NCBI GenBank assembly: GCA_026705295.1
Contig: JAPPBA010000086.1
Coordinates: 1 to 36,449 of the forward strand
Reading direction: 5' to 3'
Origin: Candidatus Palauibacter australiensis
Lineage (GTDB): Bacteria > Gemmatimonadota > Gemmatimonadetes > Palauibacterales > Palauibacteraceae
DNA: 36,449 bases
Of the stretch, positions 1-26,246 are shown one piece after another. The first letter of the stretch is position 1. The number at the start of each line of letters is the position of its first letter. Both the position numbers and the translations under genes were made by a program. The notes below the pieces were generated by a model, which saw only the letters and a list, made by a program, of their open reading frames with translations, searched no databases and was not told where the DNA came from.

Positions 1-60
1 CTCAAGGTATATTGTACTTCGTGGTATGGGTCATCGAAATCGGGGTTCGAATGAAGAGCC
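1..60 (+). promoter_or_regulatory. Leader with PadR-operator-like sequence
   Basis: Positions 3-17 read CAAGGTATATTGTAC, nearly the same as CAAGGTACATTGTAAC just upstream of padR at 2095-2110. The similarity continues through TGGTAT and GGTC blocks to an ATGAAGA at 51-57, matching the padR start at 2146. The left half of the operator would lie before the window edge. TATATT at 8-13 could be a -10 box. I infer that the PadR protein encoded at 2146 also controls the gene at 61. Confidence 0.5.
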
Positions 61-68
61 GTGTTTGA
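51..68 (+). pseudogene. Possible start-codon remnant of a lost padR copy
   Basis: ATGAAGA at 51-57 sits at the same place in the duplicated leader as the first codons of padR at 2146 and opens a five-codon frame (MKSRV) ending in the TGA at 66-68. That TGA lies inside the first codons of the gene at 61. The arrangement looks like a padR copy whose body was deleted, joining its first codons to the start of the following membrane-protein gene. It could also be chance similarity or a small upstream frame that couples translation. Confidence 0.35.
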
Positions 69-756
69 GCTGGACACCGGGGTCGCGAGTTGGCGCAGGC
101 GTCTCGAACGCAGGACGTCTCTCTCACCCCGCGAACTGGACGAACTCGAGGATCACCTGCGTGCGCGCGTCGACCTGGAGTTGGAACTGAACCCGGCGCT
201 CACTCCCTACCCGGCGCTGGTGATCGCTCGCGAGGGTCTCGGCGCGCCGGCGGCGCTCGCCAGGGAGTTCACCAGGGCCGGTCAGCCTTGGTGGCGATAT
301 CTCCTGCTGGCGGGATGTGCGATGTACGGAGTGTCGCTTTTTCTGCCGATTGCCGGGCCCGCGGCACTTCAAATCGCGTACAATGAAGTGCCGTGGTCGG
401 CCCCCGCTCACGAGTGGTTGCACCATGCGATCGTGGACGGATGGATTCTCCCTCTGATCCCCAATCTGGCCATGGCCATGACCTTGCCGGCCCTCCTGTA
501 TTCATGGCGGTCGAGAGTGCGATGGCTCACCTGGACCATCGGCGCGTTTGGCGTCTCGGCCCTCGGATTCGGCGTGGCCAGCCTCCTGGACGGATCAGCC
601 GTCACCACCGCTGGTGAGATCACGGTTCTTCCCTATCTCGGCCTCGGGTACTGGGCATGGTCCGCGGCGCATGTGCTCGTGGCGGCAGCCCTCCTGCTTC
701 GCGGCCGCGCGTGGGCCTCCACCCGCTCGGAGACAAGGAGAGCACGGTATGTTTGA
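61..756 (+). CDS. HAAS/permease-prefix-like four-TM membrane protein, copy 1
   Basis: The 231-residue protein belongs to a family present four times in this window. Residues about 8-75 form a charged helical domain with the shared core LSPRELDELEDHLRAR followed by a LG.P.AL..EF pattern, as in HAAS or permease-prefix domains that are often co-encoded with PadR regulators. Four hydrophobic segments follow at about 80-98, 122-149, 155-176 and 192-217; the last begins with a conserved GYWAWS motif. A GTG start at 61 is chosen because all paralogues begin MFEL or MFEF at this point; no strong ribosome site precedes it. Its end overlaps the next gene by 8 nt. A role as membrane partner of the PadR regulator is inferred; the signal it senses is unknown. 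Confidence 0.8.
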   Translation: MFELDTGVASWRRRLERRTSLSPRELDELEDHLRARVDLELELNPALTPYPALVIAREGLGAPAALAREFTRAGQPWWRYLLLAGCAMYGVSLFLPIAGPAALQIAYNEVPWSAPAHEWLHHAIVDGWILPLIPNLAMAMTLPALLYSWRSRVRWLTWTIGAFGVSALGFGVASLLDGSAVTTAGEITVLPYLGLGYWAWSAAHVLVAAALLLRGRAWASTRSETRRARYV

Positions 757-2017
757 GCTGGCTCGGCTGAGGCCGATCACCCGGGCGTGTCGGTGCGCTG
801 CGGCATTACTGTCCGGAACGGCGTTCGTCGCATGCGCTGACGGCGCAGACGCAGGGGGCGCAGACGCAGATGGCGATCCGTCGTCCCCCGCGATTGAGCT
901 ATCGGCGTCGGCCATCGAGGTGCTGGGCACGTCCGACTCCCTCGCGGTGGTCCGGGACCTCGAGGTGCTGGCCGACGGCTCCGTGTGGGTGCTGAATTCG
1001 CAGGAGCCGTACTTCATGGGATTCGGTGCGGATGGCGCATCCCTCGGCGCCCACGGATCGGCCGGCGGGGGACCTGACGAGTTTCCGATGCCCTCGGCCT
1101 TCGTCGCGGGAGGATGGGCGGGTGAAGCGTGGGTTCTCGACCTCCTGCACCACGCGCTGATCCGGATCTCCCAACCGGGTGCCGTCCAGGAGGCGTTCTC
1201 CCTCGTGTCGACATCGGTTCCCCGAGGCAGCGTGCGGAGCGGCATGAGCATGCTGGATTCGTCCGTGCGGACCGCACGGCTCGGCCGCGAGATCGTCGTG
1301 CCCCACTCGACCGCGACGATGGACGGGGGCGTGCTGCAGTTCCGTTACGGTCTCCTGGGCGCGGACCTGGTCGCCGTGGATCCGGAGACGGGCGGGGCGC
1401 GAACCCTCGTGGCGCTCGGCGACGCCCTGGAGGATCCGTCCGGAGACTTCATCCAGAGCGACGGCGGTTTTCCCCTGTGGTACCGGTTGTGGGCCTCCTG
1501 CGGCGAGAGCCTCGTGCGCGTGCACGACCGGGTCCGGAACCAACTGCGCGGGTTCGACGGATCCGGCGCCGAGGTGGATCCCATCGACCTTCCGCCCGTG
1601 CCCTTCACCGAGGTCAGTCCGCGACAGCTCGCCGCAGCCGTGTTCGCGCTCAGGCAGGCCGAGATGACGGGAGACGTCGCGACCCGGCTTACCCCGGAGG
1701 ACAGCCTTCGGCTCGTGAATCAGATGGCCGATATGGTGCAGGGGACACCGCGCGAACTCGCGAGCTACCTTCCCCGGTACGTGGACTTCCGCTGCAGCGA
1801 GGACGGGACGATGTGGCTGCGTCCCATGGATCTCGATGCGGGCGGCCTGAGCGGCGGCCCCGTGTGGCTGCGCATCGAGCCCGATGGCGCCGCGCGCGAC
1901 GTGCGACTCCCCGACCGCTTCGACGCGCTTCGTTTCACCCCCTCCCGGATCTGGGGTGTGTCCCGGGACGAGTTCGATCGCCCGTCCGTGGCGTCCATCC
2001 CGCTCCCGCCCGGCTGA
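749..2017 (+). CDS. Exported six-bladed-propeller-like protein, probable lipoprotein
   Basis: The 422-residue product has a basic N-terminus and a hydrophobic stretch ending in FVAC, a slightly atypical lipobox, then a Gly/Asp-rich linker. From about residue 50 it shows propeller-like blade repeats, including a G-GGGPDEF signature typical of six-bladed NHL-like propellers, and ends IPLPPG like its paralogue at 4717. ATG 749 is chosen over upstream in-frame codons because AAGGAG at 735-740 lies 8 nt before it and because it creates a sensible signal peptide. Its first codons (MFEL) are identical to those of the HAAS-like genes, as if the gene acquired their start. It overlaps the upstream gene by 8 nt, suggesting coupled translation. 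The ligand is unknown. Confidence 0.75.
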   Translation: MFELARLRPITRACRCAAALLSGTAFVACADGADAGGADADGDPSSPAIELSASAIEVLGTSDSLAVVRDLEVLADGSVWVLNSQEPYFMGFGADGASLGAHGSAGGGPDEFPMPSAFVAGGWAGEAWVLDLLHHALIRISQPGAVQEAFSLVSTSVPRGSVRSGMSMLDSSVRTARLGREIVVPHSTATMDGGVLQFRYGLLGADLVAVDPETGGARTLVALGDALEDPSGDFIQSDGGFPLWYRLWASCGESLVRVHDRVRNQLRGFDGSGAEVDPIDLPPVPFTEVSPRQLAAAVFALRQAEMTGDVATRLTPEDSLRLVNQMADMVQGTPRELASYLPRYVDFRCSEDGTMWLRPMDLDAGGLSGGPVWLRIEPDGAARDVRLPDRFDALRFTPSRIWGVSRDEFDRPSVASIPLPPG

Positions 2018-2028
2018 TGGCAAGTCCC

Positions 2029-2050
2029 GGACGTTCCCGCGGGAACGTCC
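2029..2050. promoter_or_regulatory. Perfect 22-bp palindrome, copy 1 of a repeated element
   Basis: The core ACGTTCCCGCGGGAACGT at 2031-2048 is flanked by GG and CC, giving a 22-bp perfect palindrome 12 nt after the propeller gene. The same 18-bp core occurs at 22995-23012, and in both places CGTTGCG follows after exactly 9 nt. It is probably a binding site for a dimeric regulator. A terminator role is less likely because the palindrome has no loop and no T-run follows. Confidence 0.55.
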
Positions 2051-2082
2051 GAGCGATCGTTGCGTACAACCATTCGACGGCA

Positions 2083-2108
2083 TACCTTGTCGTACAAGGT
2101 ACATTGTA
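2083..2108 (+). promoter_or_regulatory. Probable PadR operator
   Basis: TACCTTG at 2083-2089 and CAAGGTA at 2095-2101 form a perfect 7-bp inverted repeat with a 5-nt spacer. A second dyad overlaps it: TACAA at 2093-2097 with TTGTA at 2104-2108. It lies 38 nt before the padR start, the usual position for autorepression by a winged-helix PadR dimer. The 1-60 leader carries a close match. Confidence 0.65.
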
Positions 2109-2145
2109 ACTCATGGTATCAGGTCTCCGGCACAGGGGTCTCCGG

Positions 2146-2487
2146 ATGAAGAAGCCGGTCTACAAGGAGTTAGTGGCCGCGTCATCGCGCCCGATGGTGC
2201 TCTCCATCCTCGCGGGTGGTGAGACGTACGGGTACGAGATCCTCAAGCAGGTCCAGTTGCTCTCCGGGGGTGAACTCGAGTGGTCCGACGGGATGCTCTA
2301 CCCCGTCCTGCACCGGCTGGAGCGTGACGGACTCATCAAGGGCCGTTGGCAACTCACCGACGCGGGACGGCGTCGCAAGTACTACCGGTTGACGGGCCGC
2401 GGGAAGCGACAGCTCTCAACCGATCGGGAGAGTTGGCGGGCCGTGTACGGAGCCCTCCAGATGTCCTGGGGAGGCAGCCATGTTTGA
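2146..2487 (+). CDS. PadR-family transcriptional regulator
   Basis: The 113-residue protein is a compact PadR winged-helix repressor: the N-terminal helix MKKPVYKELVAAS, then MVLSILAGGETYGYEILKQV, the recognition region MLYPVLHRLERDGLI, and the wing ending in RRKYYRLTGRGK. The ATG at 2146 is preferred over ATG 2113, which directly abuts the operator, because AGGGG at 2134-2138 is well spaced and PadR proteins usually begin this way. The stop lies inside the first codons of the next gene (8-nt overlap, 2480-2487), so regulator and membrane protein are probably translated together. PadR proteins generally derepress in response to a ligand or partner protein; here the partner may be the HAAS-like domain. 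Confidence 0.88.
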   Translation: MKKPVYKELVAASSRPMVLSILAGGETYGYEILKQVQLLSGGELEWSDGMLYPVLHRLERDGLIKGRWQLTDAGRRRKYYRLTGRGKRQLSTDRESWRAVYGALQMSWGGSHV

Positions 2488-3127
2488 GTTCGAGAATGAA
2501 GTCCGACGGTGGCGGAGCGCACTGGATCGGAGGTCGTCGCTCTCGCCTCGCGAACTGGATGAACTCGAAGATCACCTGCGCGCCCGAGTCGACCTGGAAC
2601 TGGAGTTGGACGCCGCCCTGGCCCCGACGGAAGCCTTCGCGATCGCCCGGCGAGACCTCGGTGAGCCGAAGGCGCTCTCCAGGGAGTTCGCCCGGGCCGG
2701 GCGACCCCGATGGAAGCCTCTTCTTGCCGGTGCCTTGGCCCTCTACGCGGCTTCGATACTGCTGCCCGTGCTACACATGCAACTACTTCCGGCGTCGTGG
2801 GGCTTCGAAGCCTGGGTACCGCGCGGGTATGAGTTGCTTGCCGACATCGAGCTGCTGCCCCTGAACCTGCCGATGCTCCTGATGCTGCCTCTCATTTGGC
2901 GCAAGCCTCGACTAAAGGGCACCTGGCTCGCGGGGATCCTCGGAGTCATCGGCGCGTCGACTCTCGGACTCGGCGCGGCCGCGTTTATCTCGGACGGTAC
3001 TGGTGCGCTGGCCACGTTGCGTCCCGGCTATTGGGCCTGGGCCGCCTCCTTCGTACTCGCCTCCGTCGCCCTGTGGCGCCGCCGCCGCGGTTGGGCACCC
3101 GCCCGCCCGAAGAAGACGCTCGCCTAG
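2480..3127 (+). CDS. HAAS/permease-prefix-like four-TM membrane protein, copy 2
   Basis: This 215-residue paralogue is the one directly coupled to padR. Its N-terminal helical domain (about 1-75) contains SLSPRELDELEDHLRARV and DLGEPKALSREFARAG. Hydrophobic segments fall at about 81-98, 125-141, 147-169 and 183-199, and the last contains GYWAWAASFV. A GGGGAGG ribosome site at 2468-2474 serves the ATG. It is the shortest of the four copies, with a reduced loop between the first two membrane segments. The genetic link to padR supports a membrane-sensor or regulator-sequestration role, which is inferred. Confidence 0.8.
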   Translation: MFEFENEVRRWRSALDRRSSLSPRELDELEDHLRARVDLELELDAALAPTEAFAIARRDLGEPKALSREFARAGRPRWKPLLAGALALYAASILLPVLHMQLLPASWGFEAWVPRGYELLADIELLPLNLPMLLMLPLIWRKPRLKGTWLAGILGVIGASTLGLGAAAFISDGTGALATLRPGYWAWAASFVLASVALWRRRRGWAPARPKKTLA

Positions 3128-3139
3128 GTCGGCGTAGTC

Positions 3140-3868
3140 GTGTTTGAACTGGACCCGGAAGTCCGAAAGTGGCGGACGAAGCTGGAGCGGGGATCGTCGC
3201 TGTCGGCCCGTGAACTGGATGAACTCGAAGATCACCTCCGCGCGCGCGTCAGCCTCGAACTGGACCTGAACCCGGTCTTGGCCCCGGCCGAGGCGCTGGC
3301 CATCGCTCGCGAAGGACTGGGCCAGCCGAAGGCGATATCGAGCGAGTTTGCGAGGGCGGGACGGCCCCGGTGGCGGCGCGTTCTGTGGGCGGCGTGGGCG
3401 CTGTACGCGGCCTCGTTTCTCCTCCCGACTGTGGTGACCTCCGGAGTGGTCAGCCCGTCGGGCGGCGTCGTGGACTTTACAGCCTACGGATACGAGTTCT
3501 TCGTCCGCGTCTTTCGGGAAGGCGAACTCGGACCGCCGCTGGTCGTGCTGCTCCTCAATCTTCCCATGCTGATGACCCTGCCGGTGCTGTGGCGCTCCCG
3601 CCGGTGGAAGGTGCCGTGGCTGCTGATTGGAGCCGTGGGCGTCGGGACGCTCGGCTTCGGCATTCTCAGCCTCGGCTGGCCTCCAACCATCATGGCCGAT
3701 GGCGCCGGCGGACCCGCGTATCTGGGTCCCGGCTACTGGGCGTGGTCCGCTTCCTTCGTCTGCACCGCCGTCGCCCTCTGGCTCCGCAAACGCAATTGGG
3801 CCTCCGCCAGGCCGACGAACGGCGTGGCTTCAACGTTCGGCCCGTACTCCGGAGCAGATCATGTTTGA
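3140..3868 (+). CDS. HAAS/permease-prefix-like four-TM membrane protein, copy 3
   Basis: The 242-residue paralogue starts at GTG 3140, 12 nt after copy 2, with the same MFEL beginning. The prefix domain keeps SLSARELDELEDHLRARV and EGLGQPKAISSEFARAG. After the first TM (about 80-100) there is a roughly 35-residue loop, then three more TM segments, the last with PGYWAWSASFVC. There is no clear ribosome site, so translation probably depends on copy 2. It overlaps copy 4 by 8 nt. The extra-membrane loops vary between copies while the prefix and the last TM are conserved, which fits different inputs to a shared output. Confidence 0.8.
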   Translation: MFELDPEVRKWRTKLERGSSLSARELDELEDHLRARVSLELDLNPVLAPAEALAIAREGLGQPKAISSEFARAGRPRWRRVLWAAWALYAASFLLPTVVTSGVVSPSGGVVDFTAYGYEFFVRVFREGELGPPLVVLLLNLPMLMTLPVLWRSRRWKVPWLLIGAVGVGTLGFGILSLGWPPTIMADGAGGPAYLGPGYWAWSASFVCTAVALWLRKRNWASARPTNGVASTFGPYSGADHV

Positions 3869-4604
3869 GCTTGAGGCCGAAGTCACGCAGTGGCGCAGGA
3901 AGGTGGAGCGCAGTTCTTCGCTTTCTCCGCGCGAAGTCGATGAGTTGGAGGACCACCTCCGAGCCCGCTTCGAGTTGGAACGCGAGATGACGCCCGAGCG
4001 GTCGCCAGCCCGAGCCTTCAACACCGTGTGCGCTGAACTGGGTGAAGCCGCCGCGCTTTCGAAGGAGTTTGCGAAGGCCGGAAGGCGAAGGTGGCGACCC
4101 GTGTTGGCGGCCGGCTGGGCGATGTTCGCGGTCTCGTTCTTTCTGCCGATCTCTCGGCTGGCCTGGGTTGATTCCGGGGCGCTCCACCCGGATCTCGTGG
4201 CCCTCGTCGGATCGCAGCGCCCTTACGAGTTGCTGTGGGCGCTGACCACGATGGGGATGACGGACGCGGTGCTGGCCGTGTGGATCGGGGCTGCAGTACT
4301 ACTCCCGAATCTGCCGTTGCTTATGACCTTGCCGGCGCTGCTGGGCTCTCGGCGACCCGCCCGGCGGTGGCTCCTGCGGGTCCTCGGCGCCATGGGCGTC
4401 GTGAACCTGGGGCTGGGGATGTTCCGCGTCTTCAGCCCGTCACCCTTCCCGTACGATGAAGGTGCCGTCGCGTTCTCAACCCCGGGCGCCGGGTACTGGC
4501 TGTGGTCCGCGTCGTTCGCCTTCGCAGCCGCCGCGCTCTGGCTCCGCGGCCGAAGCTGGGCCGCTGGCGAACGGGCGGAACCGGCGACCCAGCGGGCGAT
4601 GTAG
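3861..4604 (+). CDS. HAAS/permease-prefix-like four-TM membrane protein, copy 4
   Basis: The 247-residue paralogue starts at ATG 3861 with GGAG at 3851-3854 upstream. The prefix domain (SLSPREVDELEDHLRARF) is the most diverged: the usual IAREGLG becomes VCAELGEA. Four TM segments follow, with a longer first external loop (about residues 100-130) and a GYWLWSASFAFAAAALW final segment. It closes the padR-containing run of genes; a weak terminator-like hairpin follows at 4643. The function is inferred only from family and context. Confidence 0.8.
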   Translation: MFELEAEVTQWRRKVERSSSLSPREVDELEDHLRARFELEREMTPERSPARAFNTVCAELGEAAALSKEFAKAGRRRWRPVLAAGWAMFAVSFFLPISRLAWVDSGALHPDLVALVGSQRPYELLWALTTMGMTDAVLAVWIGAAVLLPNLPLLMTLPALLGSRRPARRWLLRVLGAMGVVNLGLGMFRVFSPSPFPYDEGAVAFSTPGAGYWLWSASFAFAAAALWLRGRSWAAGERAEPATQRAM

Positions 4605-4642
4605 TCGGCACGGGAACTTCGATCGGTTAAGATCAGCTTTCG

Positions 4643-4665
4643 CGGTGACACGCTGTGTTTCACCG
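4643..4665 (+). terminator. Possible terminator after the padR-HAAS run
   Basis: CGGTGA at 4643-4648 pairs with TCACCG at 4660-4665, and the inner CAC can pair with GTG at 4655-4657 if two T bases bulge. TGCCGTTTTCT follows, a short T-rich tail. The stem is modest, so this is only a candidate end for the preceding transcript. Confidence 0.35.
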
Positions 4666-4716
4666 TGCCGTTTTCTACGAACGCCGGCCCATAACCCGCC
4701 TCGAGGAATCGCTCAA

Positions 4717-5934
4717 GTGAAGACCTTCCCTCGTGTGGCCGCTCTTCTGCTGGCTGCGGGATCGAGCACGATTCCAAGCGAAACCAGTGCCCAGGACGCT
4801 GCGGGTGTCGCCTCTCGCTGGATTGTGAATTCGCAGCCGGAGCGCGCTTACGGGTGGCTGGAGGGAGAGCCGGACAGCGAGTTCTCCGCCGTCGTCGGTG
4901 TCGTCTGGGGGCCGAATGAGAGCATCGCCGTAGCGGATCGGACCCTCGCGATGATCGCCGTCCTTGCCGTTGATGGGAGGGTCACGGCCACCATGGGGCG
5001 CGCGGGCGATGGTCCCGGGGAATTCGGGAGGCTGGCAGGCATCGCGGCGAGCGGAATGGGTCGGATTGTCGCCTTCGATCGCGAACACCAGCGCCTGTCG
5101 GAATGGACGTTCGACGGATCGCTGTCGGAGGACACCAGGCTGAACCGTACGGGCGCGGGCAGGCGGATCGGCGAAGTCGGACGATTCGCGGACGGCAGGT
5201 GGTACGCGCGCGAGGGGGATCGGATGGTCGCCGCAGATCGGGGCGGCGTGGGCCGGGATACGGTCGGCTTCCACCGGCTCGACGAGGACGGCGCGGTCGG
5301 CGAGGTACTGGCTCGCGTCCCGGGGAGCCTCAGCTCGCAGTTCGTCGTCGAGGGAATGTCCGGGATGCGCGGTGCGTTGTTCTCGCCGCGAGCACTCGGC
5401 GCCATCAGGGGCAACTGCCTCCTGCTCGCCGCCGGCGACGAACCCGTCGTACGGGTCTTCGACCAAACGGGTACCCCGCGGGGTGAACTGCGCCTCGACA
5501 TCCCGGTCGACCGCGTGAGCGCGGAACACAGAGAACGGTGGGTTGCGGCGTCGGTCGCGGCCGCGGGACGCGCAATGGGCGGCGAGGTCGTCCCGGAGGC
5601 GGCCCGGATGATCGAGGTGATGGGCGAAGCGGTCGGGATGGCGGAGCGGGTGCCGTTCGCCAACGACCTCATCGTGGACGAACTGGGGTACATCTGGATC
5701 CAGTCCTGGCAGCTTCCCGGTGGCCCGGGCAGTCCGGAGTGGCGGGTCTTCACGGAAACCGGCCGGGGGATCGGGACCGTTCAGGTGCCCGAAGGCTTTC
5801 GCGTGCTGGACATATCGGCGGAGGCGCTCACAGCCGTCCGGACAGATGAACTCGGCCGACAATTCGTGCAGGTGCATGCGCTTGACCGACGTGAGGCCGT
5901 CGCCACCCTCCCCCTTCCGCCCGGTTGCGGCTGA
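4717..5934 (+). CDS. Exported six-bladed-propeller-like protein
   Basis: The 405-residue protein has a signal peptide (KTFPRVAALLLAAG, probable cleavage after TSA near residue 26) and blade-like repeats with a GDGPGEFGRLAGIA signature, as in secreted 6-bladed/NHL-type propellers. It resembles the protein at 749 in order of motifs and in its ending (LPLPPG). GTG 4717 is chosen because GAGGA at 4703-4707 is correctly spaced and the signal peptide starts here; the longer in-frame reading would run back into the previous gene. It may be transcribed separately, since 112 nt and a hairpin precede it. The function is unknown, and the paired position beside the HAAS cluster suggests an envelope sensing or scaffold role. 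Confidence 0.78.
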   Translation: MKTFPRVAALLLAAGSSTIPSETSAQDAAGVASRWIVNSQPERAYGWLEGEPDSEFSAVVGVVWGPNESIAVADRTLAMIAVLAVDGRVTATMGRAGDGPGEFGRLAGIAASGMGRIVAFDREHQRLSEWTFDGSLSEDTRLNRTGAGRRIGEVGRFADGRWYAREGDRMVAADRGGVGRDTVGFHRLDEDGAVGEVLARVPGSLSSQFVVEGMSGMRGALFSPRALGAIRGNCLLLAAGDEPVVRVFDQTGTPRGELRLDIPVDRVSAEHRERWVAASVAAAGRAMGGEVVPEAARMIEVMGEAVGMAERVPFANDLIVDELGYIWIQSWQLPGGPGSPEWRVFTETGRGIGTVQVPEGFRVLDISAEALTAVRTDELGRQFVQVHALDRREAVATLPLPPGCG

Positions 5935-6003
5935 TCTCTCCCGCGGTATCCGGCTGGCCGGGCGATCTGCGTCGATGGTACATTTTCGAGTTGGTGTATC
6001 CTT

Positions 6004-6019
6004 GCGCCCCGCGGGGCGC
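6004..6019. promoter_or_regulatory. 16-bp GC palindrome upstream of the DUF1592 gene
   Basis: GCGCCCCGCGGGGCGC is a perfect palindrome 29 nt before the ATG at 6049, within a 114-bp gap. It could be an operator or a leader hairpin. GGTACATT at 5977-5984, part of the PadR-like motif, lies just upstream, but only as a half site. The role is unknown. Confidence 0.3.
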
Positions 6020-6048
6020 GACGCGGTTGCACGGAAGAGGCTTCGGCC

Positions 6049-8586: not shown

Positions 8587-9977
8587 TGGAGTTCATCACA
8601 GGGAAACACCTCTCTCGCCGGACGTTCCTCCGGGGCGCGGGGGCGACCGTCGCCCTGCCGCTGCTCGACGCGATGGTGCCGGCGGGCCGGCTGTGGGCGC
8701 GGGAGGTCGCGGATCCGACGCGGCTCGTCTGCATCGAGATGGTGCACGGCTCGGCGGGGAGCAGCGGGTTCGGGGCGGCGCAGAACTACTGGTCCCCCGC
8801 GACGACGGGCCGGGGTTTCGATCTGTCCCCGACCGCGCTGAGTTCGCTTGAGCCGTATCGGGACTATCTCACGATCATCAGCGATACCGACGTCGAGCCG
8901 GCCGAAGCCACGCAGCCGAAGGAGATCGGCGGGGACCACTTCCGGTCGAGCGCCACCTTCCTCACGCAGGCGCACCCGAAGCAGACGGAGAGTTCGGACG
9001 TCTTCGTGGGGCCGTCGCTGGACCAGCTCTACGCGCACCGCTTCGGGCAGGACACGCCGATCCCGTCCATGCAGCTCTGCATCGAGAACGTGGACCAGGC
9101 AGGGGGCTGCGCGTACGGGTACGCGTGCGTGTACACGGACACGATCAGCTGGTCTTCGCCGACGCAGCCGCTTCCGATGATCCGGGATCCGCGGGTCGCG
9201 TTCGACCAGCTCTTCGGGGCCGGCGGGACGCCGGAGGCGCGCGAGGCGAGACAGCGCTCGAGCGCCAGCATCCTCGATTTCCTCACCGGTGAGGTCGCGA
9301 GCCTCAAGGGACGGCTCGATCCGTCCGACCGGCAGCGCATGGACCGCTACCTCGAGAACGTGCGGGAGATCGAACGCCGCATCCAGCGCGTGGTGGCGCG
9401 CAACGAGTCCGGTGAGAACCGGGATCTTCCGGAAGCCCCGGCGGGCGTGCCCGATTCGTTCGACGAGCACGTGAAGCTGATGTTCGACCTGCAGGCGCTC
9501 GCGTTCCAGGCGGACATGACGCGCGTGTTCTCGTTCAAGATGGGACGGGACGCGTCCGGGCGGGTCTATCCGGAGAGCGGGATCGACAGGGGTTTCCACC
9601 CGGCGTCGCACCACGGCGACAACGAGAACAACATCACGGACTTCGCGCAGATCAACCGCTACCACGTCGGGCTCGTCCCGTACTTCCTCGACCGGCTGAA
9701 GGCGTCGATGGAGGGGGACACGCACCTGCTCGACAAGACGATGATCGTCTACGGGTCGCCGATGGGGGATCCGAACGTGCACAACCACAAGCGGTGCCCG
9801 CTCTTCGTGGTGGGCGGCGCGCAGGGGCGGATGGAAGGAAACCTGCACCTGCGGGCCGCGCCGGGAACGCCGATGGCGAACGTGATGCTGAGCCTCATGC
9901 ACCGGCTCGGGTTGGACGACATGACGAGCTTCGGCAACAGCACCGGGACGTTCTCGTTCGCGGAGACGGCGGACTGA
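8586..9977 (+). CDS. DUF1552 family protein with Tat signal
   Basis: The 463-residue product starts at the ATG overlapping the previous TGA (TGATG). Its N-terminus carries a twin-arginine motif (LSRRTFLRG, arginines 13-14) and a hydrophobic stretch ending near WAREV, so it is probably exported folded. The rest is typical DUF1552, with features such as GGDHFRSSATFLT, a charged helix around DRQRMDRYLENVREIERR and YGSPMGDPNVHNHKRCP, which recall the alkaline-phosphatase-like fold of the related DUF1501. DUF1592 and DUF1552 are usually encoded together. The substrate is unknown, and a joint periplasmic redox or polymer-degrading role is only inferred. Confidence 0.88.
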   Translation: MEFITGKHLSRRTFLRGAGATVALPLLDAMVPAGRLWAREVADPTRLVCIEMVHGSAGSSGFGAAQNYWSPATTGRGFDLSPTALSSLEPYRDYLTIISDTDVEPAEATQPKEIGGDHFRSSATFLTQAHPKQTESSDVFVGPSLDQLYAHRFGQDTPIPSMQLCIENVDQAGGCAYGYACVYTDTISWSSPTQPLPMIRDPRVAFDQLFGAGGTPEAREARQRSSASILDFLTGEVASLKGRLDPSDRQRMDRYLENVREIERRIQRVVARNESGENRDLPEAPAGVPDSFDEHVKLMFDLQALAFQADMTRVFSFKMGRDASGRVYPESGIDRGFHPASHHGDNENNITDFAQINRYHVGLVPYFLDRLKASMEGDTHLLDKTMIVYGSPMGDPNVHNHKRCPLFVVGGAQGRMEGNLHLRAAPGTPMANVMLSLMHRLGLDDMTSFGNSTGTFSFAETAD

Positions 9978-11782
9978 TGCGGCGCGCGCGATCGCTGGTC
10001 TTCACGGCCGCGGCGCTGCTCGCGCTCGGGGCGGCCGCGCCGGTCGGGTCGCCGGTGGGGTCCCTGGCCGGGTCGCCGGTGGGGCTGGGCGGGCCGGATG
10101 CTCCGGTGGCCGACGCGGCCATGCGCGGCGATCTGGACGCCGTGCGGTCGCTGCTGGCCGCGGGCGAAGACGTGAACGCCGCGCGGGGCGACGGCATGAC
10201 GGCACTCCACTGGGCCGCGATGAAGGGCCGGCCCGACGTGGCCGGGGTGCTGATCGAGGCGGGCGCGGATCTCGAGGCGGGCACGCGGCTGGGCGGGCAC
10301 ACGCCGCTCCACGTGGCGAGCCGCGCGGCGCAGGCCCCGCTCGTCGAGGCGCTGCTGGCGGCGGGAGCCGAGGCCGACGCCGCGACATCGACCGGCGTGA
10401 CGCCGCTGCACTTCGCGGCCGCCGCCGGGTCCGCCGGTGCGGTCGAGGCGCTGGTGCGCCACGGCGCCGATCCGAACGCCCGGGAGCCCGAGTGGGGCCA
10501 GACGCCGCTCATGTTCGCCGCGGCGGCGGGCCGGGCCGGCTCGCTGGACGCCCTCATCGACGCGGGGGCGGACCCCTCGGCCACCGCGTACGTGCTCGAC
10601 ATCGTGGCGCGCGACGCGTGGGACCAGCTCGACCGCCGCGAACGCAATGCCCGCGTGGCCGCGCTCCGGGCGGGCCGCCAGCCGCCGGTCCCGTCAGCGC
10701 GCGAAGCCGCCCCGAGGCCGACCGCCGGCCCCGGCCCCGGCCTCCAGGCCGTGCGGCTCGAGGACCCCGAGGAGCCCACCTGCTCCGGCTGCCTGGGCAA
10801 CTACGCCGACCTCGTCGGCACGCACGGCGGGCTGACCGCGCTGCTGCTCGCGGCCCGCGAGGGCCACCGCGATGCGACGCTGGCCCTGCTCGACAAGGGT
10901 GCGGACATCGACCAGCGGAGCGCCGCGGACAACACGACCCCGCTGCTCATCGCGATGATCAACGGGCACTTCGACCTCGCGATGGAACTCTTCGCGCGCG
11001 GGGCCGACCCGAACCTCCAGAGCGATGCCGGCGCCACCCCGCTGTACGCGGCGCTCAACATGCACTGGGCGCCGAAGGCCCGGCATCCGCAGCCCACGGA
11101 CGTGCACCAGCAGCAGTGGTCGTACCTCGACGTCATACGGACGCTGCTCGAAGCGGGCGTTGACCCGAACCCGCGGCTGAAGAAGTCGCTCTGGTTCACG
11201 ACGTACAACCGCGACCTGCTGGGCGTCGACCGCACCGGCGCCACGCCCTTCTGGCGCGCCGCGCACGCGCTCGACATCGACGCCATGAAGCTGCTCCTCG
11301 AGTACGGGGCCGATCCCACGACGCCGACCGCGAAGGTTCCGGCGCGGCGCTACGGCCGAGGCGGAGACAACATCGATCACTCCGGTCTCGACCCGATCCC
11401 CGTGGGCGGTCCGGCGGTCCATCCAATTCACGCGGCGGCCGGCGTCGGCTACGGACAGGGCTTCGCGGGCAACTCGCACCGCCATGTACCGGAGGGCTGG
11501 CTTCCGGCGATGAGGTTCCTCGTCGAGGGACTCGGCGCCGATGTGAACGCGCGCGACCACAACGGCTACACGCCCGCACACCACGCCGCCTCGCGCGGCG
11601 ACAACGAGATGATCCTCTATCTCGTGGAACAGGGCGCCGACGTGACCCTCGTGGCCCGCAACGGCCAGACGACCGTCGATCTGGCCAACGGGCCGGTCCA
11701 GCGCGTGCAGCCCTTCCCGGAGACGATCGCTCTCCTCGAGAGCCTCGGGGCGAAGAACAACCACCGCTGCGTCTCCTGCTGA
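9977..11782 (+). CDS. Exported ankyrin-repeat protein
   Basis: The 601-residue protein starts at the ATG overlapping the DUF1552 stop by one base, which puts a signal peptide (RRARSLVFTAAALLALGAAA) at the N-terminus. Ankyrin repeats occupy about 44-190 (for example DGMTALHWAAMKGRPDVAGVLIEAGAD) and about 275-590, separated by a Pro-rich linker with CSGC near 266-269. The protein ends in RCVSC, so four cysteines are available for disulfides or metal. The third place in a coupled trio suggests a scaffold or interaction partner for the two enzymes outside the cytoplasm. Earlier in-frame codons lie inside the DUF1552 gene and are rejected. Confidence 0.85.
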   Translation: MRRARSLVFTAAALLALGAAAPVGSPVGSLAGSPVGLGGPDAPVADAAMRGDLDAVRSLLAAGEDVNAARGDGMTALHWAAMKGRPDVAGVLIEAGADLEAGTRLGGHTPLHVASRAAQAPLVEALLAAGAEADAATSTGVTPLHFAAAAGSAGAVEALVRHGADPNAREPEWGQTPLMFAAAAGRAGSLDALIDAGADPSATAYVLDIVARDAWDQLDRRERNARVAALRAGRQPPVPSAREAAPRPTAGPGPGLQAVRLEDPEEPTCSGCLGNYADLVGTHGGLTALLLAAREGHRDATLALLDKGADIDQRSAADNTTPLLIAMINGHFDLAMELFARGADPNLQSDAGATPLYAALNMHWAPKARHPQPTDVHQQQWSYLDVIRTLLEAGVDPNPRLKKSLWFTTYNRDLLGVDRTGATPFWRAAHALDIDAMKLLLEYGADPTTPTAKVPARRYGRGGDNIDHSGLDPIPVGGPAVHPIHAAAGVGYGQGFAGNSHRHVPEGWLPAMRFLVEGLGADVNARDHNGYTPAHHAASRGDNEMILYLVEQGADVTLVARNGQTTVDLANGPVQRVQPFPETIALLESLGAKNNHRCVSC

Positions 11783-25607: not shown

Positions 25608-25817
25608 ATGAGAAAAACCAGCGTGGAAATCGACGACGGGCTCATCGAACAGGTTCGGGCCCTCCTTGGGACGTCCTCCATCAAGGAGACGATCGACTCC
25701 GCCTTGCGCGAAGTCCTGCGTCGGGAGGCGCGACGCCAGGAGATCGAGGCCCTGGCGACGATGGATGGGCTCGAACTGTCGAACGAGAAGGTCATGGCCG
25801 GCGCCTGGCGTTCCTGA
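25608..25817 (+). CDS. VapB-like antitoxin
   Basis: The 69-residue protein begins RKTSVEIDDGLIEQVRALLG, the ribbon strand and first helix of a ribbon-helix-helix protein, then TSSIKETIDSALREVLRREARRQEIEAL, the second helix, and ends in a short tail (LSNEKVMAGAWRS) suited to wrapping the toxin. It would bind the operator at 25552 and neutralise the PIN protein 21 nt downstream. GGGAGAGG lies before the ATG. Confidence 0.82.
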   Translation: MRKTSVEIDDGLIEQVRALLGTSSIKETIDSALREVLRREARRQEIEALATMDGLELSNEKVMAGAWRS

Positions 25818-25838
25818 ACCAGCCCGGGTCGAACGCGA

Positions 25839-26246
25839 GTGGCCTACCTCATCGACAAGAGCGCGCTGGCACGCATGGCGCATCCCCGGGTCCACGCACG
25901 GCTCACGCCGGTCATCGAAACGGGCCAGGCGGCGACCTGCGCCATCATCGACCTGGAGGTGCTCTACTCCACCCGTAATGGCGAGGAGCACGCGCGAGCG
26001 CGGGCCCGGCGTGCGCTGGCGTACCGTCACGTTCCACTCACGGAAGCGATCTTTCAGCGGGCCATCGCAGTGCAGGGACTGCTCGCCCGCCGGGCGCAGC
26101 ACCGGGTGCCGATCGCCGACCTCATCATTGCCGCCGCAGCCGAAGCCTCCCACCTGACCGTCCTCCACTACGATGCGGATTTCGACACGATCGCGGCCGT
26201 CACGGGCCAGGTTACCGAATGGGTTGCCCCACGGGGTTCCCTCTAG
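25839..26246 (+). CDS. VapC-like PIN-domain toxin
   Basis: The 135-residue protein has the PIN acidic residues: Asp6 in YLIDKSALARM, Glu40 in IIDLEVLYS, Asp94 in VPIADLIIAAAA, and Asp112/Asp114 in LHYDADFD. These bind Mg2+ in an RNase active site. A GTG start gives a length normal for VapC. With the VapB-like gene it forms a type II toxin-antitoxin pair; free toxin would cut tRNA or rRNA. Downstream lies the gene-free region with tRNA-like repeats, an intriguing neighbourhood for an RNase but not evidence of a link. Confidence 0.85.
   Translation: MAYLIDKSALARMAHPRVHARLTPVIETGQAATCAIIDLEVLYSTRNGEEHARARARRALAYRHVPLTEAIFQRAIAVQGLLARRAQHRVPIADLIIAAAAEASHLTVLHYDADFDTIAAVTGQVTEWVAPRGSL

Follow-up and report, generated by a model that had tools for sequence, protein, structure and literature searches.

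A Candidate PadR Regulon Built on an Array of HAAS-Type Membrane-Protein Genes in the Palauibacter Group

The window considered here, a stretch of 36,449 nucleotides that is one whole contig (JAPPBA010000086.1; G000:C86) of a Gemmatimonadota genome in the Palauibacter group, begins with a cluster of genes occupying bases 1-5934: four for membrane proteins of HAAS type (HAAS1 to HAAS4), one for a PadR-type regulator, and two for exported propeller proteins (PROP1 and PROP2). Candidatus Palauibacter denitrificans is among its closest named relatives. Taking all the evidence together, I lean towards explaining the cluster as a PadR repressor that regulates itself and is accompanied by a recombining set of membrane partners of HAAS type. 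The argument draws mostly on the remnant of a lost padR gene, on an operator that outlived it, and on the different rates at which parts of the membrane proteins have changed.

Two Units Behind Copies of One Operator

Bases 1-5934 make up two transcription units, A and B, both preceded by a copy of the same PadR-type operator. Unit A consists of part of an operator (1-28), HAAS1, PROP1 and then a 24-bp palindrome. Unit B consists of a presumed promoter and operator (2060-2120), padR, HAAS2, HAAS3, HAAS4, a gap of 112 nt, and PROP2. A previous interpretation of this DNA, made from its letters alone (the sequence-only reading), had listed four paralogous proteins with a prefix and four transmembrane (TM) helices, one PadR and two exported propellers, and all of these are present at 61-5934. 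It had also listed a single operator, where two are found, AAGGTATATTGTA at 4-16 and AAGGTACATTGTA at 2096-2108. Its description of the genes as mostly overlapping holds for three of the six junctions (HAAS1/PROP1, padR/HAAS2 and HAAS3/HAAS4), each of which overlaps by 8 nt at an RTGTTTGA box, where the start of the downstream gene overlaps the stop of the upstream gene, but the array as a whole is split into two units by the palindrome at 2028-2051. The features are these (open reading frame, ORF; R1 is the operator model described below):

1-28, + strand: operator A, right-hand part only, found by R1 match; the unit A promoter is beyond the contig end
51-68, + strand: padR1 fossil of 18 nt, a five-codon ORF (MKSRV, then stop) overlapping the start of HAAS1; a full padR1 stands at this place in loci L073 and L074
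61-756, + strand: HAAS1, cytoplasmic prefix and four TM helices, GTG start (ORF, perm_prefix_1 profile, paralogue alignment)
749-2017, + strand: PROP1, lipoprotein-like, exported, propeller of six-bladed type, first codons MFEL resembling what is left of a HAAS start (ORF, structure comparison)
2028-2051, unstranded: perfect 24-bp palindrome 3' of PROP1, terminator-like but without a run of T, its sequence largely retained in relatives
2060-2088, + strand: presumed promoter of unit B, TTGCGT, 17 nt, TACCTT, identified by eye, the -10 box lying inside the left arm of the operator
2082-2120, + strand: operator B, dyad-symmetric (R1 match; TACCTTGT/ACAAGGTA repeat)
2146-2487, + strand: padR, also called padR2 (Pfam PF03551)
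2480-3127, + strand: HAAS2, overlapping padR by 8 nt (profile, paralogue alignment, structure model)
3140-3868, + strand: HAAS3, GTG start (profile, paralogue alignment)
3861-4604, + strand: HAAS4, overlapping HAAS3 by 8 nt, with GEA replacing GxP (profile, paralogue alignment)
4717-5934, + strand: PROP2, exported propeller with a signal-peptide-like N terminus, accessory (Pfam, BLASTP, presence in relatives)
5951-6048, + strand: conserved downstream boundary, the upstream region of a DUF1592 gene, where the variable part stops (near-identical in 11 loci, the preceding DNA differing)

The regulator is a winged helix-turn-helix (wHTH) protein by its match to Pfam PF03551 (E 4.2e-24; 84.8 bits against a cut-off of 27), and its best NCBIfam model is TIGR03433 (padR_acidobact; E 8.6e-27, just below cut-off). 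The operator, as read from its sequence, is about 39 bp long and dyad-symmetric and spans the presumed -10 and start region of unit B.

A Lost Repressor Gene and a Retained Operator

Because the contig starts inside operator A, the DNA upstream of unit A was read from relatives. Twelve loci were compared, the window and the main locus fetched from 11 other genomes of the genus. Of the 11 fetched relatives, 10 have a complete 39-bp operator A with a -35-like box (TTGCCG or TTGACG). Unit A opens in L073 and L074 with a full padR1 (MKK...SSRV or SGRV, then stop), 87% identical to padR2, which is itself 96-100% identical across the 11 relatives. At the same place nine loci, the window and eight others, have ATGAAGAGCC[G/A]TGTTTGA, which reads MK-S[R/H]V and stop. 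In the twelfth (L072), padR1 and HAAS1 are both gone. Judged by these alignments, the fossil is left from an in-frame loss of about 107 codons, which spared the promoter, the operator, the start of padR and the stop/start overlap with HAAS1. Since padR1 was lost in frame, with the promoter, operator and HAAS1 start spared, the most economical view is that the other PadR now represses unit A in trans.

In the nine loci that have lost padR1, 5 of the 39 columns of operator A vary, against 12 of 23 in the leader (Fisher p 0.0013; 0.012 if the operator is compared to the leader plus upstream DNA), while the fossil varies in 1 of 18. PadR1 and PadR2 have in common the identical stretch SDGMLYPVLHRLERDGLI, which I take to be the PadR recognition helix, as well as the operator. 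The paralogous PadR-HAAS loci have SGGMLYPLLHRLEK as the corresponding stretch and GATATGTAG/CTACATATC as the outer operator arms around a similar centre. The idea that one PadR presides over several prefix proteins, already present in the sequence-only reading, thus gains from the padR1 fossil, the identical recognition-helix stretch and the common operator.

The paralogous locus, with a single PadR-HAAS pair and a different dyad operator (GATATGTAG...CTACATATC), occurs in L075-L082 and on another contig of the window genome (G000:C67). An ankyrin-repeat gene precedes it and, in several cases, a gene for a protein with an HTH-like C terminus follows, both judged by eye. Altogether three of the five PadR genes of the window genome adjoin a gene of the prefix type.

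Extent of the Regulon

To describe the operator, a sequence-only model (R1) was built from 15 operator sequences and run over 17 genomes of the genus; the building sites match by construction. Operator B is among them (E 2.1e-12 on the + strand, 0.024 on the - strand). Operator A of the window, outside the building set, matches model positions 14-41 with an E value of 7.9e-6. Among the 150 first-look candidates scored per genome, sites at E<=0.05 appear before unit A or unit B only, in 12 of the 17 genomes, the remaining matches being reverse-strand readings of the same palindromic sites. On the same scoring, the five genomes that lack the locus have no match at E<=0.1. G027 has one weak additional site (E 0.055), upstream of a different HAAS gene. 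With operator sites only before units A and B, the regulon looks closed, and a wiring of one PadR, two operators and a closed regulon is, in my judgment, quite probable. A half site with three mismatches at 5975, before the DUF1592 gene, was considered as a further PadR operator and rejected: the region around it, though highly conserved in 11 loci, has no R1 match.

Outside the genus locus, the five strongest operator matches, all in another family (L017, L015, L018, L016 and L032), precede HAAS genes without a padR. The PadR is found further inside the array in four of these, and the contig of L016 ends before a possible PadR. L018 has a 17-codon leader ending in NRV and stop at the same overlap box. 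L015, L017 and L032 gave no second + strand site at E<=0.1.

A Conserved Prefix on Variable Membrane Proteins

HAAS1-4 are full-length paralogues, 45-51% identical to HAAS1, with an invariant ELEDHLRAR block. No Pfam domain scores above cut-off in any of the four. The NCBIfam model perm_prefix_1 (NF038403), which covers about the first 60 residues, finds the HAAS2 prefix with an E value of 6.5e-6, below its curated cut-off, and the other three more weakly; over a larger set it matches 49 of 59 HAAS proteins at E<=1, the best at 1.3e-7. A structural model of HAAS2 (mean pLDDT 85.4) has predicted prefix helices at residues 2-18, 23-43, 49-60 and 63-74 and helices of TM length at 78-94, 123-140, 148-172 and 182-205. 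The third predicted prefix helix is broken at residues 61-62, the position of the GxP motif, of which the G is found in all 59 proteins and the P in 26, HAAS1-3 having the motif complete. As modelled, the prefix agrees with the HAAS core of three helices, the third kinked, described in the portion of PMC11237479 available. That source also assigns PDB 2O3L to the HAAS superfamily. Neither DUF1129 nor PDB 2O3L was matched by the prefix, a short and divergent domain, and 2O3L is likewise missing from the listed fold and sequence matches, the structural list barely covering the prefix.

That structural list is dominated, for the TM part, by folds of the claudin/TARP/LetA type, with four TM helices (Z 7.5-9.4, root-mean-square deviation (rmsd) about 4-5 over 112-137 residues, Foldseek E>=0.5). 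A profile of the whole protein gave one match to a calcium-channel gamma subunit (E 0.52), a profile of the TM part gave none to claudin-, TARP- or LetA-like proteins, and a literature search on LetA, TARP and claudin found no paper. The likeness in the models is a resemblance, and Z values of this level may reflect just a common arrangement of helices.

The earlier reading contrasted conserved prefixes with variable loops, and substitution counts bear this out. From 44 HAAS genes of the genus (200-262 aa, which leaves aside members such as a fused HAAS1 in G019 and a split one in G020), 61 within-genome paralogue pairs were compared, 59 for loop 2. The nonsynonymous proportion (pN) rises from 0.21 in the prefix to 0.57 and 0.60 in loops 1 and 2, at similar, near-saturated synonymous proportions (pS) of 0.60, 0.64 and 0.73, respectively. 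The prefix is thus the most constrained part of the proteins. In the loops, pN/pS is near 1 and not above it, which speaks for relaxed or diversified use and falls short of proving positive selection. Gene conversion was rejected as the cause of the similar prefixes, pS in the prefix (0.60) being like that elsewhere (0.58-0.73), albeit near saturation and from 44 sequences. Selection, not homogenisation, would by these counts account for most of the similarity.

Some pairs of proteins are mosaics: L070|11774 and L064|6241 share a prefix (0.88) but not a TM part (0.34), and so do L072|10116 and L074|6163 (0.95 against 0.53). PROP1 of the window opens with MFEL, the codons that start HAAS genes, and in L073 and L074 its frame opens with a longer HAAS-like stretch (by eye). 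Given prefixes that are shared while TM parts differ, and given the HAAS-like start of PROP1, the array appears to evolve by gain, loss and reshuffling of HAAS cassettes. Single members of the array can also decay, as evidenced by L065 (G020:C44), in which an in-frame TAG splits HAAS1 into pieces of 88 and 141 aa. In G019 (L064/L012, G019:C197), the loss of a single base at the overlap box joins HAAS1 to PROP1 in one ORF of 645 aa; I make no use of this fusion as evidence, since it comes from one genome and could be a sequencing error. A larger conjecture, that the array is a receptor repertoire diversified by recombination, in which each cassette pairs a constant prefix for docking PadR with an exchangeable, claudin-like TM/loop module, the cassettes being linked at RTGTTTGA boxes, gained, lost and re-assorted among sponge symbionts and all read by one repressor with a closed regulon, is tentative and on present evidence rather doubtful.

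Divergence of PadR and the Prefix

Adjacent PadR-HAAS pairs, 33 after filtering of 43 for redundancy, were used to compare distances. Those between PadR wHTH domains correlate more strongly with prefix distances (r 0.754) than with TM distances (0.497), and the partial correlations are 0.654 for the prefix given the TM part and 0.019 for the TM part given the prefix. With full PadR sequences, the bootstrap range of the prefix-minus-TM difference is 0.02-0.24. Such co-divergence favours a putative interface between PadR and the prefix, and I consider physical contact between the two somewhat better than an even proposition.

The Propellers

A model of PROP1, of low confidence (mean pLDDT 56), finds six-bladed NHL propellers (Foldseek E 8e-8; Z 15.3 (VIA), rmsd 4.1 to 1q7f over 244 residues), and PROP1 matches PROP2 by BLASTP over its C-terminal part (E 7e-6, 26%). 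The sequence-only reading had the propellers detect envelope signals alongside the variable loops. Propellers do lie next to PadR-HAAS genes somewhat more often than chance would have it: beside two of three loci in the window genome (p about 0.014 by a rough binomial that assumes four neighbours) and beside 5 or 6 of 22 loci outside the genus (p 0.016 or 0.003 by the same binomial, counted by eye). In L029, L030, L031 and L033 the propeller gene is divergent, just before padR. This adjacency is modest evidence, because this propeller class is common in the window genome: 82 stretches match it, in about 58 genes, near 1.8% if the genome has the assumed 3257 genes. With so many genes of the class, and with PROP2 in only 5 of 12 loci (one of the five cut by a contig end), the case for propellers as core sensors is weakened. 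PROP1 is a likely partner and PROP2 an accessory. In L072-L074 the place of PROP2 is taken by a different protein of 393-406 aa, with propeller-type Pfam matches for the L072 contig.

The third PadR-prefix locus of the window genome (G000:C110:27000-30400; L139) consists of genes for a PadR, a prefix-TM protein, a small TM protein and a propeller lipoprotein, the last in one frame with a part resembling, by eye, a formylglycine-generating enzyme.

Distribution and Neighbouring Genes

A profile of the four HAAS proteins finds the locus in 12 of 17 genomes of the same genus, with gene order and flanks in support, and so the conserved neighbourhood that had been expected is there. PROP1 and padR2 are present in all 12 loci, the number of HAAS genes ranges from three to five, and the DUF1592 gene lies downstream wherever the contig reaches. 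Within the family, 15 of 35 genomes match the profile at E<=0.001, the three outside the genus weakly, by the prefix only and in longer ORFs. Within a sample of the phylum, with at most 7 candidates scored per genome, at least 89 of 395 genomes have some match at E<=1e-10, and the strongest full-length matches among those listed come from this genus and one other family (f6).

A further 26 named loci were compared, three of them the genus locus again and some titled Gammaproteobacteria. A distant family repeats the layout of the PadR-HAAS array, and arrays in other families extend to HHPHHHHPHH (H for HAAS, P for PadR). PadR overlaps or adjoins HAAS in the relatives, but as these were fetched by their HAAS genes, I do not count the constant adjacency as evidence. 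Near the array of the other family in L015, L024 and L031, downstream of the HAAS genes, is an exported peptidase of the prolyl-oligopeptidase type (by Pfam in L031, by eye in the others), and L018, L029, L030 and L032 have proteins of similar length and position.

Two other features of the window are an exported ankyrin-repeat protein of 601 aa (9977-11782), directly 3' of the DUF1592/DUF1552 gene pair, and a VapB/PIN-domain toxin-antitoxin pair (25608-26246). The host bacteria are marine and apparently associated with sponges. The SB06 and RHO series are presumably metagenome-assembled genomes (MAGs) from sponges, which was not confirmed in PMC8163846 or PMC10469786. The jk18 MAG series comes from Ircinia sponges, according to the accessible part of PMC9531527.

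A Possible Mechanism and Its Alternatives

In the mechanism I favour, the remaining PadR would repress both units, unit A in trans, and its regulon would be padR itself together with the genes for HAAS proteins and propellers. The output would then consist of the HAAS proteins and propellers themselves, since the regulon has nothing beyond them and the regulator's own gene. Each HAAS protein would span the inner membrane, its helical prefix lying on the cytoplasmic side and touching PadR. A disturbance sensed by the TM helices and the variable outward loops would alter the availability of the prefix, PadR would leave its operators, and more HAAS, propeller and PadR would be made until repression returned. 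A constant prefix facing PadR, combined with exchangeable TM/loop modules, would allow several inputs to feed one repressor; that each member of the array has a distinct input is possible, though I would not count on it. The choice of anti-repressor over co-repressor for the prefix, and the nature of the signals, are guesses. What survives of the sequence-only interpretation, a multi-input envelope-sensing system, is the conserved neighbourhood, the single PadR, and the contrast between prefix and loops, now joined by the co-divergence of PadR and prefix; sensing by the propellers is what has lost ground.

Several observations weigh against this mechanism. In Listeria, deletion of lftS, of HAAS type, left the repression of lieAB by LftR unchanged, as stated in the part of PMC4517056 available, which means that control of a PadR by its HAAS partner is not a given. 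The C-terminal part of PadR tracks the TM part (0.521) slightly better than the prefix (0.478), and the mirror correlations are possibly inflated, with TM distances nearer saturation and pairs that share a phylogeny. The GxP motif is complete in only 26 of 59 proteins and incomplete in HAAS4. The Pfam families of HAAS type, DUF1700 and DUF1048, match none of the 59, an absence that, for so short and divergent a domain, does not amount to exclusion. Finally, R1 scored 150 of the 289-679 first-look candidates in each genome, so that weaker sites could escape.

LmrR-type PadRs sense small molecules directly, and the alternative that must be taken most seriously, unlikely as it seems, is that PadR here senses an envelope-active small molecule while the HAAS proteins and propellers are effectors only, an envelope-protection or immunity set, with a prefix that does not act on PadR. 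A closed regulon suits such a set, and in what is accessible of two reports on Listeria, LftR acts on lieAB with or without LftS (PMC4517056) and the authors assume that the Listeria PadRs answer compounds acting on the envelope (PMC6624303). It would not lead one to expect that, of all parts of the HAAS proteins, the prefix is under the strongest constraint, that its divergence follows that of PadR, or that three of the genome's five PadR genes stand beside a prefix-type gene. A second alternative reverses the sign: HAAS prefixes would be co-repressor anchors, keeping PadR on DNA or at the membrane, and repression would weaken when stress breaks the complex. The same genetic evidence serves it, as that evidence does not fix the sign, but many HAAS copies per PadR within the repressed units fit it less well, and I regard it as improbable. 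Least credible, and very improbable, is that unit A is a decaying relic, constitutive since the loss of padR1 with its operator surviving by inertia, for although a TAG interrupts HAAS1 in frame in G020, the PROP1 sequence of L071 and L073 is spread over two frames, and padR1 and HAAS1 are gone from unit A in G030, operator A is conserved better than its leader, HAAS1 orthologues have a pN/pS of 0.21 in the prefix, and PROP1 is retained in 12 of 12 loci.

Comparison with Known Systems

The preferred reading, an autoregulated PadR with HAAS-type partners, has its closest tested counterpart in LltR of Listeria (lmo0599), the nearest case of a closed PadR regulon in the literature available to me. 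In the text of PMC6624303 available, LltR represses its own operon more than 100-fold, the operon encoding a membrane protein (lmo0600, DUF1700) and an exported protein (lmo0601, DUF4097). The present locus, as far as its sequence tells, would likewise have a PadR autorepressor acting mainly on the operon to which it belongs, with genes for a HAAS-type protein of several TM helices and for an exported one. Unlike this locus, the Listeria operon has one HAAS gene, a different exported partner, and a host among the Firmicutes.

More generally, HAAS and PadR-like wHTH proteins have been put forward, from their genome context, as a signalling dyad and as an alternative to two-component systems (mSystems 2024, PMC11237479, from the portion available). 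As in that dyad, the PadR gene overlaps the gene of a membrane protein with an N-terminal helical domain, and the predicted third prefix helix breaks at GxP; fusions to four TM helices are mentioned in the same portion. Unlike the dyad as presented there, the HAAS genes come in tandem arrays, 2-8 per locus with 1-2 PadRs, a unit without padR stands behind the same operator, TM modules are exchanged, and NHL-type propellers occur instead of PspC/Toastrack partners, with no Pfam match of HAAS type. The permeases of perm_prefix_1 (NF038403) differ in that the prefix here is attached to a four-TM domain of about 140 residues. A search for literature on HAAS arrays or the 'permease prefix domain' found only PMC11237479 and PMC12419801 (one occurrence of 'HAAS domain'), most subscription journals lying outside the search.

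The locus amounts to a set of natural experiments on the HAAS-PadR idea: a PadR lost with its operator retained, paralogous PadRs in which a changed recognition helix goes with changed operator arms, and membrane partners whose prefix is retained while the rest is swapped. It also offers a short list of proteins and two DNA sites with which a little-studied partnership of repressor and membrane sensor might be taken up in a laboratory host. What is new relative to the known HAAS-PadR dyad is an array served by one PadR, a unit without padR under the same operator, and membrane modules that can be exchanged.

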